The notes under the pieces were generated by a model that was not told the DNA's origin, did no database searches, and saw only the letters and a list, made by a program, of their open reading frames with translations. From the NCBI RefSeq assembly GCF_000166715.1, contig NZ_AEMI01000016.1, positions 124,001 to 188,000 of the forward strand: a stretch of 64,000 nt of DNA. Direction: 5' to 3'. The translations under genes and the position numbers were made by a program. Of this stretch, positions 7,387 to 12,051 are shown piece by piece. Within the stretch, counting starts at the first letter, position 1; every line of letters starts with the position of its first letter. Source of the stretch: Leuconostoc gelidum subsp. gelidum KCTC 3527 (GTDB taxonomy: Bacteria > Bacillota > Bacilli > Lactobacillales > Lactobacillaceae).

Positions 7387-7629
7387 CTAATCAATGTCCA
7401 ATGGCATGTATGAAACATCGTTGCCATTGGATTGAATTTCGCTATTAGCAATCAATGCTGATCTAATAGCACCATGAAACATTTCTTTTTGAATGAAATA
7501 TTCATATTCGATTGTATTTTCCGTATGCGGATCAAAATCACTAGATGAATTCATCATGATTGAATCTGCTTCCGCTAACAGAGCAATTACTTTTCCCGAT
7601 ACTTTTTGGTATGATTCTTTATTTGTCAT
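7387..7629 (-). CDS. Phage early protein, unknown
   Basis: 80 residues, acidic and probably helical, with AGGAAAAAAT before the ATG. There is no HTH, membrane or metal-binding motif. It lies between the antirepressor and the AlpA-like gene with gaps of about ten bases, so it belongs to the same transcript. The family is not recognised. Confidence 0.55.
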   Translation of the reverse strand: MTNKESYQKVSGKVIALLAEADSIMMNSSSDFDPHTENTIEYEYFIQKEMFHGAIRSALIANSEIQSNGNDVSYMPLDID

Positions 7630-7637
7630 ATTTTTTC

Positions 7638-8348
7638 CTATGCCGTCTCATTTAAATCCAGTGGAATTTGTTCAATAATCGTTTTTGTTGCCGTCGATGG
7701 TTCCCATGTATCAATGAACCGAATAACTGAATCGTAATCTTTAGACTTAATACGCGAACGGTTGCCAGCGCCTGTTACCTGTTTGATCTGACTATTCAAG
7801 TCTTTAAACAATGGACCGCGATTTTCTTTAGATATACGATGTATCGAAGCGTAACTGTGAACACGATGTGTAACTGCTGTCCCTATTGCTCCGTAGTCCG
7901 TGGCGTTAACAGGTTGATTTTCTATGAATGTGTCTACTTTTTCATCAATGTGTTCAACACGTTCGCTAACTTCCAAAATTGAATCATTTTGCAATTTCAG
8001 CATTTCGGTTGGTGTTAGCTGTTTAAGTTGATATCCTCCCGTTTTACGAATTCTTGGCAAAACTTCTGACGTGACCCAATCTTGGAAATTTTCAGCTGTT
8101 TCGTTATTAGCTTTGATTGCTAATTTATAAAACTGTGGTTCGGTGATGAAATCACCTCGTTTTATTTTCGACACTTTTGTCGAATTTTTTAAATATTGAT
8201 TAACGCGGTTCCAAATCACATATACAATTCCATTATTCTTCGTTTCAACCAATCCCAATCCGATTGCTACGCTTTCTGCATCGAACATGACTTGTCCGTT
8301 TTCTTCTTTGACTTTCAGGTTGTCAAATACCTTAATTTCTTGTGTCAT
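7638..8348 (-). CDS. Phage antirepressor (BRO-N + ORF6C)
   Basis: 236 residues. The N-terminal ~115 residues carry a divergent BRO-N domain (VFDNLKVKEENGQVMFDAESV, then FKLAIKANNETAENFQDWVTSEVLPRIRKTGGY-like sequence), which has a DNA-binding fold. A coiled-coil-like linker and a C-terminal ORF6C-type region follow. Phage antirepressors with this build counteract the CI-type repressor. Its place as second gene of the lytic transcript fits. The GGAGGTGTCAC site supports the start. Confidence 0.85.
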   Translation of the reverse strand: MTQEIKVFDNLKVKEENGQVMFDAESVAIGLGLVETKNNGIVYVIWNRVNQYLKNSTKVSKIKRGDFITEPQFYKLAIKANNETAENFQDWVTSEVLPRIRKTGGYQLKQLTPTEMLKLQNDSILEVSERVEHIDEKVDTFIENQPVNATDYGAIGTAVTHRVHSYASIHRISKENRGPLFKDLNSQIKQVTGAGNRSRIKSKDYDSVIRFIDTWEPSTATKTIIEQIPLDLNETA

Positions 8349-8358
8349 GTGACACCTC

Positions 8359-8589
8359 CTATACTCCAGTTAGATCTCGCATAATCCTAATAGCATTTTC
8401 TGCCGCCGGACCTTGCGTTCTTCCAGATACGATGTTCGACCAATCTGCCGGACTTAAATTTCTGCCTGACTTACCATTGATGTAGTCTGCAATTTCTTTG
8501 TTACTCATCTTTCGTAAAATACGCGCAACCGCTTGTATCTGGTCAATTACTGGCGCGGTCTTAAATTCTAGAACTGCTCGTTCCGTCAT
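8359..8589 (-). CDS. First gene of lytic operon, probable Cro-like/DNA-binding protein
   Basis: 76 residues from the ATG at 8587-8589, preceded by AAAGGAG; an upstream in-frame start lacks this. The sequence (MSNKEIADYINGKSGRNLSPADWSNIVSGRTQG, residues ~38-70) has the spacing of a helix-turn-helix, though not a textbook XRE. As the first gene transcribed leftward from the switch it occupies the Cro position. I infer a regulatory role and am unsure of the family. Confidence 0.6.
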   Translation of the reverse strand: MTERAVLEFKTAPVIDQIQAVARILRKMSNKEIADYINGKSGRNLSPADWSNIVSGRTQGPAAENAIRIMRDLTGV

Positions 8590-8625
8590 AACTAAACTCC
8601 TTTCTATTATGTTTAGCAAATTTAT

Positions 8626-8654
8626 TTGACAACTATAAAACTTTATAGTATGAT
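8626..8654 (+). promoter_or_regulatory. Repressor-direction promoter with operator in spacer
   Basis: TTGACA (8626-8631), 17-base spacer, TATGAT (8649-8654). The spacer contains the palindrome CTATAAAACTTTATAG (8633-8648). It points right, towards the repressor start at 8853, and fires across the opposing promoter at 8771-8799. Confidence 0.8.
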
Positions 8655-8770
8655 TGCATTATTAAAAACACTAACAACAACCCTGTTATCACGCGGTTTG
8701 TAAACTCTCACATCTCATATCGCGGGGTGTTTTTAGCAACGCTTATTACAAATATCTTTGCTGTATCTAT

Positions 8771-8799
8771 AGAATACTATAAAGTTTTATAATTGTCAA
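8771..8799 (-). promoter_or_regulatory. Lytic-direction promoter with operator in spacer
   Basis: Reading the minus strand: TTGACA (8799-8794), 17-base spacer, TATTCT (8776-8771). The spacer holds the same palindrome as the opposing promoter (plus-strand CTATAAAGTTTTATAA, 8777-8792). It points left, towards the antirepressor operon, so the two promoters face one another. Confidence 0.8.
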
Positions 8800-8806
8800 C
8801 TTTTTT

Positions 8807-8822
8807 CTATAAAGTTTTCTAT
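8807..8822. promoter_or_regulatory. Third operator-like site
   Basis: CTATAAAGTTTTCTAT matches the two promoter-embedded palindromes at most positions and starts exactly 30 bp (about three helical turns) from the second. It lies between the lytic promoter -35 and the repressor gene, in the transcribed leader of the repressor. Confidence 0.6.
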
Positions 8823-8852
8823 TTTCAGCAATTTATACGGAGAAATACTATC

Positions 8853-9197
8853 ATGACCCTATTTGACAGAACAAAAGAAGCTGCACAACTACAAGGATTA
8901 TCGGTATCAATGCTCGAGAAACGGGCAGGAATATCAGAGAATGCGTTGTATAGTTGGCGAAAAAGTAGCCCTAAATCAGAAAACCTACAAAAAGTAGCTG
9001 ACGTCTTACATGTATCAACAGACTATTTACTTGGTCGCACTGACGAACCGAACCATTATATGACGGAAACAGAAAAGATGTTAAGCGGCGTTGATTTATC
9101 TGAAGCCATTGACCGTTCTATTCCATTAACTTATGGCGGTCACGAACTAGATGATAATGATAAAGAAATAATACGACGCCTATTTGAGGAAAAATAA
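8853..9197 (+). CDS. CI-like phage repressor (XRE family)
   Basis: 114 residues from the ATG at 8853 with a GGAG site; upstream in-frame codons cross the operator region. Residues ~8-60 form a lambda-type HTH (AAQLQGLSVSMLEKRAGISENALYSWRKSSPKSENLQKVADVLHVSTDYLLGR in pieces). The C-terminal ~50 residues are acidic, with no LexA/CI peptidase domain. This fits repressors controlled by an ImmA-type protease, which is encoded four bases downstream. It probably binds the three CTATAAA palindromes upstream. Confidence 0.88.
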   Translation: MTLFDRTKEAAQLQGLSVSMLEKRAGISENALYSWRKSSPKSENLQKVADVLHVSTDYLLGRTDEPNHYMTETEKMLSGVDLSEAIDRSIPLTYGGHELDDNDKEIIRRLFEEK

Positions 9198-9200
9198 TGT

Positions 9201-9572
9201 ATGAATAACGAAGAAAAGGTTTGGAATGTTCTTGAAAAATTAGGGTTAACCGTAACCGTTTATGACAATCTTCACGCTAATGCCGTGACTGTTGATAAAC
9301 AAATATTGGTTAGCGGAACTATTTTAAATAGTACTGAATTTGTATATGTAATGGCTCACGAAGTAGCGCATTATGTGCTTCATACAGATCATCGCCATAA
9401 CAGCATCAAAAATGAAGCAGAAGCTAATAGATGGGCTATCAGATTTTTAACAACAGATGTTCATCACATCAGAAGTTATGTTGAATTTATGCAAATAAAC
9501 GGTATCCCGGGTAAATTACTTGATATGGTACAAGATGTATTAACACCGATAATGCTTTCACGTGTAGAATAA
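9201..9572 (+). CDS. ImmA/IrrE-type metallopeptidase
   Basis: 123 residues. The zinc-protease motif HEVAH is at residues 53-57 (YVMAHEVAHYVLH), with a downstream EAEANRWAIRFL that supplies the third ligand (E72 or E74). ImmA-like proteases cleave XRE repressors to induce mobile elements. It directly follows the repressor gene, is on the same strand and is surely cotranscribed. Length and pairing match the domain of unknown function DUF955 in phages of lactic acid bacteria. Confidence 0.9.
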   Translation: MNNEEKVWNVLEKLGLTVTVYDNLHANAVTVDKQILVSGTILNSTEFVYVMAHEVAHYVLHTDHRHNSIKNEAEANRWAIRFLTTDVHHIRSYVEFMQINGIPGKLLDMVQDVLTPIMLSRVE

Positions 9573-9618
9573 ATATATGTGCCAAGCAACCACATTAAAA
9601 GGTTTTGGGAGAGATAAT

Positions 9619-10878
9619 ATGTTAAGTGGGATTTTGTTGTTACTGTGGATTGTAACATCTATAGTATTTTTGGTAACGCTAATCATATTTATAGTTGAAA
9701 AACAAAGAAAAAAACAAGGAAGTATAAATAAAAAAGTACTAATAATAATATTTGCTATTGGGATTATTTTTTTAATCGCAGGTATCACATCCGGCAATTT
9801 AAATAAAGATAGTAATAGCAGCTCAAATAATAAAAAAACAGCAAAAGAACAAACTGTCTATAAGGTCAAAGTTGACAGTGTAAAAGTAGATGATATGTCA
9901 AATTGGGAAATTAAAGGAACTACAAATGCACCAGATGGGGCGAAAATGTTCGCCACTTACGGAGACAAGACAGACAGTGACTTTTTTGGAATAAACGCTG
10001 CATCTTCAAAATCTACTATTTATTGGTCAACAACTAGAAATGGTAGATTTACAATGCTGGTTGATCCATTGACCATGCACTATGAAAAAGCGTATCAAGG
10101 TAATCAAGCTGTCAAAGCTTATTTGTTTGCCGTGACAGGATTAAAAGGAAAATTAGATTATTATAGTCTAAATCCGAAAATCAATAGTAATTTAAAGTCA
10201 ACCATTATTGATAGTATCAAAATAACTAATTTAACATTAAGCGACTCACAAGCAAAATATTACAACAATTTAGGAAGTTCAAGTTCTAGTTCTTCATCAA
10301 ATAGCAGTGAAGAATCATCGAGTTCTTCATCATCAGATGCAGATACTGATTCATCATTAAGTCCCAAGGGAACTGCAAAAGATCTAGCTACAGGCACGTG
10401 GTCAGCAGGAAAAGATTTTGATAAAGGTTATTATAAAATAACAGCAACAGGTGGTAGTGGTAATCTAAGTTCAACTAATAATTCAGATGGATTTGATTTT
10501 TCAGCAATATTAGGAACAGACGCAGATAATGATTTAGGACAAGTTACTTCTTATACTGGATTTATATTAAAAAATACAGAATTAGAAATATCTGGTCTTC
10601 AAGGCGTCCATTTAGAACCTGTTAGTCCAACACAAGAAATAGATATTACTAATATACCCGCTGGTGATTATATAGTAGGCGGATCAATACCAGCTGGTCG
10701 TTACAAATTATCTGCTGTTCAAGGAAGCGGTAATGTCACTTCGACGGGTGGTTTAAATGAGGTAATAGGAACTCAAGCTGATACAGATATTAATCAAGTT
10801 ACTAATACAACTGTCACATTAAAATCAGGCGATATATTGACAACCGGTCTTCAGCAAATATCGTTATCAAAACAATAA
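9619..10878 (+). CDS. Membrane-anchored Ser-rich protein between immA and integrase (possible lysogenic-conversion gene)
   Basis: 419 residues from the ATG at 9619, preceded by GGGAGAGATAAT; this start is preferred to one 14 codons upstream. Two hydrophobic segments (residues ~4-27 and ~41-60) anchor it. A domain follows at ~75-200 (containing WEIKGTTNAPDGAKMFATYG) and then a Ser/Glu/Asp linker around 220-250. Two related C-terminal repeats follow, each with (G)Y(Y/K)(I/L)(T/S)A...GSGN and a GT(D/Q)AD...QVT core. Surface display is likely. The location between lysogeny genes suggests expression from the prophage, perhaps in superinfection exclusion or adhesion. This is inference. Confidence 0.65.
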   Translation: MLSGILLLLWIVTSIVFLVTLIIFIVEKQRKKQGSINKKVLIIIFAIGIIFLIAGITSGNLNKDSNSSSNNKKTAKEQTVYKVKVDSVKVDDMSNWEIKGTTNAPDGAKMFATYGDKTDSDFFGINAASSKSTIYWSTTRNGRFTMLVDPLTMHYEKAYQGNQAVKAYLFAVTGLKGKLDYYSLNPKINSNLKSTIIDSIKITNLTLSDSQAKYYNNLGSSSSSSSSNSSEESSSSSSSDADTDSSLSPKGTAKDLATGTWSAGKDFDKGYYKITATGGSGNLSSTNNSDGFDFSAILGTDADNDLGQVTSYTGFILKNTELEISGLQGVHLEPVSPTQEIDITNIPAGDYIVGGSIPAGRYKLSAVQGSGNVTSTGGLNEVIGTQADTDINQVTNTTVTLKSGDILTTGLQQISLSKQ

Positions 10879-10954: not shown

Positions 10955-11007
10955 ATTATACCATGTAAGCCCCTTTTTTAAGTATGAGCTTGAGGAGGCT
11001 TTTTATT

Positions 11008-12051
11008 ATGGCATCAATTTATAAACGCGGTACTAGTTGGACGGTAAATGTGTCATTGGTTACTGGCGGAAAGCGTACTAGAAAAACAAAATCAGGGTTT
11101 AAAACAAAACGCGAAGCTGGTATATGGGCTACTACTATTGAAAATAAAAAGAATAATGATGAGCTGTCATCTGTTTTTGTTCCTGATATTACTGTGCCTG
11201 AATATTTTGGCAAGTGGTTAGAAATTTATAAGGGTAATATAAAGAGTAGCAGCATGACCGTGTATTTAGCCACGCTACACACAATTGAACGTAGTGACAT
11301 ACTTTCTACCACCAAAGCATTTAAACTAACCAGAGCGCGTGCGCAAGAGTACTTAAATGAATTTGGGACTACACACGGCAGAGCAACTACTGCAAAGCGA
11401 AAAACACAATTAAAGTCAGCTTACCAAGATGCAGTTCTTGATGGACTGATTAGAACTAACCCATTTGAAAGAACGGTAATAACTGGAAGTGATCCAAAAG
11501 ACAGTGAGTTGAAATTTTTGGAAACAGAAGAATATTTAAATTTAATTGAAGAAACAAAAATAGTTAGTTCGCCAACAAGAGACATCATATTAATAGGCGC
11601 GTTAACAGGCGCAAGAATTGGGGAAATATTAGCTTTAACTACCGACGACATAAAAGATGGTATCATTGATATTAATAAGACGGAACAATCAGCAACTCGA
11701 AAAATAGACACCACTAAAACAAAGAATTCTATCAGACAAATAGATGTTCCGGTATGGCTCACTGAAAAGTTATTAAATAAGTATCATGGAAAATTATTCA
11801 ATATAACACAGGTTGCTGTTAATAAGGCTTTTAAAAAATTGCAACGACAATTAGAATTTAAAAATATTGTTTCATTCCATGGATTGCGCCATACTCACGC
11901 TAGTTATTTAGTATCACAAGACATATCGATTGAGTACATCAGTAAAAGATTAGGACACGCTGATACAACCACCACGATGAGAATATATGCTCATCTTTTA
12001 CACTCGAAACGTCAGCAGGAAGTTAAAAAAACGATCGAATTATTTAAATAA
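11008..12051 (+). CDS. int: Phage tyrosine integrase
   Basis: 347 residues from the ATG at 11008, which a GAGGAGG site supports; a start eight codons upstream lacks one. It is a site-specific recombinase that integrates and excises the prophage. The N-terminal AP2-like arm-binding domain (SIYKRGTSWTVNVSL) is followed by a SAM-like core-binding domain (~60-160). The catalytic domain has R203 (TGARIGEIL), HGLRHTHAS with H291 and R294, LGH with H317, and nucleophile Y327. It is the rightmost prophage gene, transcribed towards the host junction. Confidence 0.95.
   Translation: MASIYKRGTSWTVNVSLVTGGKRTRKTKSGFKTKREAGIWATTIENKKNNDELSSVFVPDITVPEYFGKWLEIYKGNIKSSSMTVYLATLHTIERSDILSTTKAFKLTRARAQEYLNEFGTTHGRATTAKRKTQLKSAYQDAVLDGLIRTNPFERTVITGSDPKDSELKFLETEEYLNLIEETKIVSSPTRDIILIGALTGARIGEILALTTDDIKDGIIDINKTEQSATRKIDTTKTKNSIRQIDVPVWLTEKLLNKYHGKLFNITQVAVNKAFKKLQRQLEFKNIVSFHGLRHTHASYLVSQDISIEYISKRLGHADTTTTMRIYAHLLHSKRQQEVKKTIELFK

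Follow-up and report, generated by a model that had tools for sequence, protein, structure and literature searches.

The lysogenic and lytic promoters of a prophage in the window (the whole 64,000-nucleotide stretch of Leuconostoc gelidum DNA analysed here) very probably face each other within the control region. This predicted layout recurs in Firmicutes prophages and is not special to the window, and in many relatives the overlap between the two transcripts appears to encode a hairpin that covaries and whose loop is often of the kissing type. The best single account of the switch, to which a probability of about 0.6 is given from the comparison of sequences, combines repressor occlusion, transcriptional interference and, less certainly, antisense pairing between the cI and cro leaders.

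The control region and its two promoters

The element reads as a prophage related to Leuconostoc phages, its early genes resembling those of phages LLC-1 and phiMH1 (73–74% identity over 28% and 18%, respectively, of a 2.4-kb query). A preliminary description of this DNA had placed a lysis–lysogeny control region here, and the gene content agrees, with an HTH_3 repressor, an M78 protease and an integrase running rightward and a small gene and a Bro-N/ORF6C antirepressor running leftward:

7638–8348, minus strand: antirepressor with Bro-N and ORF6C domains (Pfam E = 7e-13 and 3e-9), beyond the 76-aa gene on its left side
8359–8589, minus strand: small protein of 76 aa in the cro position (assigned by position alone), leading the leftward operon; ATG at 8589
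8853–9197, plus strand: CI-like repressor of 114 aa (HTH_3, Pfam E = 8.3e-8; phrog_8, E = 1.1e-21); ATG at 8853
9201–9572, plus strand: ImmA/IrrE-type metalloprotease (Peptidase_M78, Pfam E = 1.1e-5)
10984–12051, plus strand: tyrosine integrase (Pfam Phage_integrase, E = 6.1e-19)

An intergenic region (8590–8852) separates the leftward 76-aa gene, for which the list of open reading frames gives a longer start at a TTG (8619), from the rightward gene of the 114-aa repressor, whose best solved relatives by profile comparison are SinR and the ICEBs1 regulator. The 76-aa protein is named cro by position alone because it has no Pfam or PHROG match, no useful PDB match (a single one at E = 0.5) and an all-helical predicted structure of low confidence (mean pLDDT 62.8). 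A serine-rich protein of 433 aa with hydrophobic N-terminal stretches (window 9577–10878; phrog_32160, E = 2.6e-16) separates the M78 protease from the integrase, in a slot that is a usual home of lysogenic-conversion or superinfection-exclusion genes.

The following promoter and operator features were located in and around the intergenic region, each transcription start being predicted seven bases past the −10 box:

8626–8654, plus strand: lysogenic (cI-ward) promoter, TTGACA (8626–8631), 17-base spacer, TATGAT (8649–8654); 11 of 12 consensus bases; predicted +1 at about 8661; position and orientation kept in relatives
8771–8799, minus strand: lytic (cro-ward) promoter, TTGACA (8799–8794), 17-base spacer, TATTCT (8776–8771); 10 of 12 consensus bases; predicted +1 at about 8764; position and orientation kept in relatives
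8661–8764, both strands when both promoters are active: mutually complementary cI and cro 5′ leaders, 104 nt, from the predicted start sites
8633–8648, no strand assigned: putative operator CTATAAAACTTTATAG between the −35 and −10 boxes of the cI-ward promoter, an exact palindrome on both strands; other sequences stand there in relatives with other repressors
8777–8792, no strand assigned: putative operator CTATAAAGTTTTATAA between the −35 and −10 boxes of the cro-ward promoter; a single mismatch, on one of the strands
8807–8822, no strand assigned: third putative operator copy, with two mismatches, 30 bp from the second copy and just upstream of the cro-ward −35 box

The preliminary description had proposed two near-perfect promoters with 17-base spacers pointing at each other. 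The positions, the spacers and, by sequence, the convergent orientation all stand, the facing layout recurring in relatives, but "near-perfect" is generous for the leftward promoter, whose −10 box TATTCT matches four of the six consensus bases. The leader overlap of about 100 bases that it expected comes to the 104 nt listed above, with a predicted cI leader of 192 nt (8661–8852) and a predicted cro leader of 175 nt (8764–8590). The promoters face each other because each sits far upstream of its own gene, the cI-ward promoter being placed towards cro and the cro-ward promoter towards cI, and each transcript must therefore traverse the other promoter.

The promoter pair forms the arms (8626–8651 and 8774–8799) of a 26-nt inverted repeat that is 96% complementary. 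Promoter-like sites over 7600–9900 are in no excess over chance (9 found vs. 9.7 ± 3.3 in shuffles), and since single sites of this kind are common by chance, the case for the promoters rests on the inverted repeat, the palindromes and the comparison with relatives. A second inverted repeat, of 14 nt (8615–8628 and 8749–8762, AGCAAATTTATTTG and CAAATATCTTTGCT; 86%), would let the cro leader base-pair through its 5′ end with RNA immediately beyond the cI-ward promoter, enclosing the entire leader structure.

The palindromes that had been described in both promoter spacers, as well as the third copy at 8807, were all recovered with the mismatches given above. Across the 64 kb, the palindrome pattern with up to two mismatches has seven matches vs. 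1.36 expected, a number reached by none of 100 shuffles; six of the seven are the three sites of the control region read on both strands, and the pattern was built from these three sites, so the count is descriptive and not an independent test.

Predicted facing promoters and putative exchangeable operators in repressor relatives

The loci used for comparison were chosen by the repressor protein alone, blind to promoters. A first set of 15 viral loci was found with a single protein, and the best 80 genome contigs and the best 80 viral contigs of larger sets were then added with an alignment of 14 repressors. Six loci (L024, L063, L101, L103, L107 and L108) were dropped beforehand, the match lying off the repressor start or the locus being incomplete, and 169 loci were kept, some of them near-duplicates, with the window's own prophage present twice. 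When the 330 bp upstream of each repressor gene were scanned with a hand-set promoter matrix, the best cI-ward promoter was found to the left of, and facing, the best cro-ward promoter in 162 of the 169 loci.

A strict test asked for scores of at least 17 from both promoters and 60–170 bp between the −10 boxes. Among 98 non-redundant regions, 94 face and 71 pass this test, compared with 1 of 980 dinucleotide shuffles, and a single region carries two strong promoters in another order. Over the 94 loci, the commonest −35 box is TTGACA on both sides (44 and 50 loci), the spacer has 17 bases in 81 and 88, and the distance between predicted start sites has a median of 105 bp (5–95% range 89–119, extremes 46 and 154). 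The layout is present in 71 of the 75 genome-contig loci analysed from the best 80, with L066, L080, L104 and L105 as exceptions; according to their records, the hosts of the loci analysed include Leuconostoc, Fructobacillus, several lactobacilli, Pediococcus, Weissella, Enterococcus, Vagococcus, Streptococcus, Listeria, Bacillus, Lysinibacillus, Oceanobacillus, Gracilibacillus and Paenibacillus. Named phages that face by the same scan are phiFL1A, PLE2, Javan514, B025, MM1 and phiMH1; TP901-1, A2, Sfi21 and A118 do not.

A held-out second set, obtained with other repressors, contained 94 loci, nine of which are unlike each other and the first set; all nine face, eight of them strictly, and none of 90 shuffles passed the strict test. 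Two whole-genome searches, of 395 and 398 genomes, supplied a held-out third set of 57 loci, 37 of them unlike the rest. Here, 30 of the 37 face within 60–170 bp and 24 pass the strict test (0 of 370 shuffles), and the other seven consist of L306 and L353, which face at a wider distance, L359, in which the promoters overlap, and L351, L354, L358 and L361, which look back-to-back with a weak cI-ward site. Given these back-to-back-like distant relatives, the facing layout is assigned to part of the repressor family. As a separate observation, the same four loci suggest that the shift from one promoter orientation to the other might be followed through that family.

These results bear on the reading that the switch is an ordinary back-to-back one whose real promoters were missed, the facing sites being weak or accidental. 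The abundance of chance promoter-like sites in the stretch would favour it, as would the distant relatives (L351, L354, L358 and L361, and also L104 and L105) that look back-to-back with a weak cI-ward site. However, the hexamers are near-consensus and stand at similar positions in most loci amid surrounding DNA that diverges, and the strict test was reached by so few shuffles (1 of 980 and 0 of 370) that this reading is barely credible. The facing layout had also been presented as unusual, a view that is not sustained: it recurs across Firmicutes prophages, and a face-to-face switch is already known in P2-like phages, as the available text of PMC7498355 describes.

The same comparison supports the palindromes as putative operators, which vary between relatives while the hexamers stay, as operators should. 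The two spacers of one locus share at least 11 matching bases in 60 of the 94 loci, vs. 5.8% for spacers taken from different loci, and spacer palindromy is weak across loci (14% vs. 7% at 12 or more matches). An extra operator copy accompanies the cro-ward promoter in 55 of the 94 loci, most commonly at a distance of 30 bp, and the cI-ward promoter in three (background about 4%); in held-out loci, the corresponding counts are 20 of 30 and 4 of 29 (background 10%). An operator between the −35 and −10 boxes is known from the Ptec promoter of Lactobacillus phage mv4, according to the accessible part of PMC10848424.

Within the window's own subfamily, five operator types surround one conserved centre. 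On the contig recorded as L015, L026 and L208, the leftward gene is 97% identical to that of the window, the repressor is 73% identical and the palindrome is different, and L207 has the operator type of the window with a slightly different centre; both patterns are what joint exchange of repressor and operator would give. The close relatives of this switch (L200, L201, L202, L204, L207 and L208) form a natural set for the study of immunity exchange.

Predicted leader structures in the overlap

In relatives, the bases after the cI-ward −10 box are strongly conserved (consensus CATAGTTAAATAAGC, its T being present in 88 of 94 loci), and the central regions average fold z-scores of −1.6 and −1.4 against 40 shuffles each. 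A set of short motifs, picked by eye from 78 central regions, occurs in 64 of the 94 loci (CGCCAA in 26, CCCC in 13, GGGG in 9, TTGGCG in 9 and xCCGAC in 7), compared with a mean of 4.6 and a maximum of 13 in shuffles, and is absent from the other 30. The motif is apical in the minimum-energy fold of 92% (plus strand) and 95% (minus strand) of the 64, vs. 30% and 21% when the flanks are shuffled. Of 30 held-out loci, 15 carry the motif and 15 lack it, shuffles averaging 1.9 and never exceeding 5, and it is apical in 12 and 14 of the 15 vs. 20% and 23%; in a smaller held-out set, it is present in five of nine, always apical, and absent from four. The motifs appear in either orientation. Five of seven facing named phages have a motif from the set in their central region; the two without are PLE2 and MM1.

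RNAalifold applied to the sequence alignments A2 and A4 returned 3 and 0 pairs. Sequence alignment fails to bring the variable stems into register, and a closer cluster, a covariance model and per-locus folding were therefore used. For the closer cluster (A5), RNAalifold predicted 28 pairs. The covariance model, built from nine loci, matches the inter-promoter site at E ≤ 0.01 in 30 of 89 and 31 of 80 sources, counting the nine it was built from, with over half of the sources short of that threshold. In an alignment of 56 loci to this model, which leans to the model's own structure and took in only sources already matching, 86.2% of cells are paired (at most 60.7% in slid controls), double changes affect 21 of 28 pairs, and double-change cells number 138 vs. 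53.5 ± 5.7 in shuffles. No known Rfam family was found in the leader, the two matches in window 8500–9000 lying far below the gathering threshold and the four matches in 20 relatives all lying outside the leader. The Rfam family Spy779816, a small RNA of S. pyogenes, matches two streptococcal loci (L058:3955–4042 and L076:3819–3909) about 1.0–1.1 kb downstream of the repressor match.

Neither strand is preferred in the per-locus folds, the plus strand being more stable in 40 of 94 loci and the in-helix counts being 128 for A-C and 105 for G-T; in the model-fitted alignment, G-U cells outnumber A-C cells (114 vs. 45), but that alignment was fitted to the plus strand. The lack of a consistently better-folding strand is expected of a sense–antisense pair, and equally of a DNA-level feature. 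The central dyad could be a DNA site for another protein, such as an excisionase, a host factor or the product of the cro-position gene, with the hairpin as a by-product. Besides the equal folding of the strands, the occurrence of the motif in both orientations would suit this reading, and P2-like phages such as 186 and P2 do place Apl/Cox sites between or over their facing promoters (PMC7498355, available portion). However, 86% and 70% of the 64 loci with the motif have predicted stems of at least 20 pairs with internal loops, whose variation takes the form of double changes and G-U pairs, unlike a compact operator, and no direct-repeat family was detected within 8655–8770 at the settings used, which makes the DNA-site reading distinctly improbable.

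The window itself carries a variant of the leader, whose predicted elements are as follows:

8662–8671, plus strand: closing stem of the leader hairpin, 5′ arm (predicted fold and subfamily alignment)
8674–8689, no strand assigned: inner hairpin with loop ACCC (GGGU on the minus strand); one pair changed on both sides among seven sequences
8692–8724, no strand assigned: inner hairpin with a CGCGGT stem and a large loop (AACTCTCACAT at 8703–8713); two stem pairs changed on both sides
8727–8736, no strand assigned: closing stem of the leader hairpin, 3′ arm, GTGTTTTTAG (predicted fold and subfamily alignment)

The covariance model has no match in the window at E values up to 1, nor in the rest of its genome at E values up to 0.001, and the motif set found at the apex in other loci is absent from the window's subfamily, which differs from the model by a different, larger loop. 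The loop core AACTCTCACAT is identical in seven sequences, six of which were fetched by protein first and one, L207, by a pattern containing the core. The predicted central RNA is kept in this subfamily while the operator type changes. The subfamily alignment is small, with seven sequences, two of which (L200 and L204) fit badly over the closing stem. It has 88.3% of its cells paired, compared with 51.3% at best for slid versions, and double changes occur in 3 of 22 pairs. The number of such pairs is not above that in shuffles (170 of 500 reach it); the double-change cells and the covariation score do exceed the shuffles (9 and 2 of 500 reach them). Complementary hairpins are predicted on both strands of the window, with fold z-scores of −1.6 for the plus-strand leader (14 of 200 shuffles as good) and −2.3 for the minus strand (3 of 200); the 220-nt cI leader taken as a whole, with z = −0.7, is not clearly better than shuffles.

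The hairpins could also act in cis, as 5′ stabilisers or partial terminators, in which case the facing promoters would work by repressor binding and polymerase interference alone, as in phage 186, and leader pairing would have no role. There, pR inhibits pL through transcriptional interference, in the available accounts (PMC7498355, PMC6593788), and a hairpin followed by a U-rich stretch was found in 63 (plus) and 56 (minus) of 94 leaders, a loose count made without a shuffle control and weak as support. Loop conservation is not required of such a hairpin, yet a small number of motifs recur in the loops in either orientation; both strands fold about equally well; and a standard scan detected no terminator-like site between the promoters of the window. 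The cis-acting explanation is therefore regarded as unlikely, although less so than the DNA-site reading.

Proposed switch and comparison with known systems

In the preferred account, which joins occlusion, interference and leader pairing, the repressor would fill the lytic promoter first and cooperatively, and its own promoter later; cooperative filling is suggested by the extra operator copy beside the lytic promoter. The best palindrome of the window lies in the cI promoter rather than in the lytic one, so the proposed asymmetry of filling is weaker unless cooperativity is strong. Once the lytic promoter is ahead, its RNA polymerases would cross and occlude the cI promoter, and the hairpin of the cro leader would meet its mirror image on the cI leader, pairing at the loops before extending into a duplex, which might be cut or might halt elongation. 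Since both presumed ribosome-binding sites lie downstream of the overlap, pairing would affect stability or elongation and not translation directly. In the lysogen, pairing would work in the reverse direction, and occlusion together with antisense pairing would provide fast mutual exclusion on top of a slower repressor loop.

Symmetric exclusion is not a given, because the interference in phage 186 is one-way: the lytic pR interferes with pL and pL does not interfere with pR, as far as the accessible portions of PMC7498355 and PMC6593788 go. For plasmid antisense RNAs, the available text of PMC4485353 states that the YUNR motif is ubiquitous in recognition loops when pairing begins loop to loop, and that loop kissing is not critical for pairing in plasmid pMV158.

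More broadly, and with odds somewhat below even, a widespread class of Firmicutes temperate phages may be envisaged in which the lysogenic and lytic regulator messages are mutual antisense RNAs through kissing-hairpin leaders, the dominant message removing the other. The decision would then be made by RNA pairing, polymerase interference and repressor binding together, and the RNA module would stay constant while operator and repressor are exchanged. Phage antisense RNAs as such are known, OOP and STnc6030 being examples in the available part of PMC7067206. Facing switch promoters in P2-like phages and a spacer operator in mv4 are likewise already known, from the portions at hand of PMC7498355 and PMC10848424. 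Among the titles and abstract beginnings listed by searches of the open-licence literature, none describes a Firmicutes facing-promoter class, and nothing on facing promoters was found in the available parts of the papers on C. difficile phage phiCDKH01 (PMC11172241) and S. thermophilus phages of the TP-J34 type (PMC3952083). The experimentally studied Gram-positive switches compared here are drawn back-to-back, whereas the prophage group represented in Lactobacillales and in Listeria, Bacillus and Paenibacillus relatives seems to be wired differently, with an extra lytic operator, one lysogenic operator and a conserved RNA in the overlap. This layout makes the role of RNA pairing and polymerase traffic in the lysogeny decision testable and may offer, for lactic acid bacteria, compact switch components whose specificity can be swapped.

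Among known systems, the P2 and 186 switches (Pe–Pc and pR–pL) resemble that of the window in having facing lytic and lysogenic promoters, with each transcript crossing the other promoter and lytic transcription interfering with the lysogenic one (PMC7498355 and PMC6593788, accessible parts). Their promoters are 40–60 bp apart according to the available text of PMC7498355, whereas the predicted starts in the window are separated by about 104 bp. The same accounts place Apl/Cox sites between or over the promoters of P2 and 186 and the primary operators over the lytic promoter, whereas the window has a predicted structured leader between its promoters and a putative operator copy in both spacers.

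Phages TP901-1, A2, Sfi21 and A118 share with the window a divergent pair of repressor and cro/mor-type genes, and in TP901-1, Sfi21 and A118 an annotated metallo-protease also adjoins the repressor. Their intergenic regions (168, 161, 152 and 125 bp, respectively) are shorter than that of the window, and their promoters are arranged otherwise: those of TP901-1 are back-to-back (PMC7250872, available portion), as are those of A2 by its annotated hexamers and of A118 by its annotated putative promoters, and in Sfi21 the best sites of the scan overlap, the cI-ward one being weak. Lactobacillus phage phig1e, like the window, has repeats in the spacers of both predicted promoters (GATAC, in our reading), but in mv4 and phig1e the promoters predicted by the same scan are back-to-back, unlike those of the window.

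Lactobacillus gasseri phage phiadh (rad/tec) has the same gene order as the window, predicted facing promoters with −10 boxes 96 bp apart and a central GAATCCCCATTC hairpin. Its rad-ward promoter is weak (TTGCAT, score 14.8) and tied with a site further upstream, and the facing pair is a choice made here. The phiadh promoters were reportedly mapped in a study of 1998 (Gene 210:61), which may be a precedent and could hold mapped rad and tec starts. The intergenic region of phiadh (L362, 3162–3597), at 436 bp, is longer than in most relatives and contains a CCCC-loop hairpin near the rad side.

The kissing YUNR pairs of plasmids resemble the predicted leaders of the window's relatives in their complementary hairpins, and the loop motifs TTGGCG and TTGGGG read UUGG on one strand, which fits YUNR as given in the available part of PMC4485353; the counts above are those of the motif set picked by eye. 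The plasmid antisense pairs consist of a small RNA and its target, whereas here two leaders of opposed regulator messages are predicted to pair. In the prgQ/prgX system of pCF10, opposed promoters with overlapping transcripts lead to bistability, much as in the switch proposed here, although pCF10 is a pheromone-regulated conjugation plasmid and not a phage switch.
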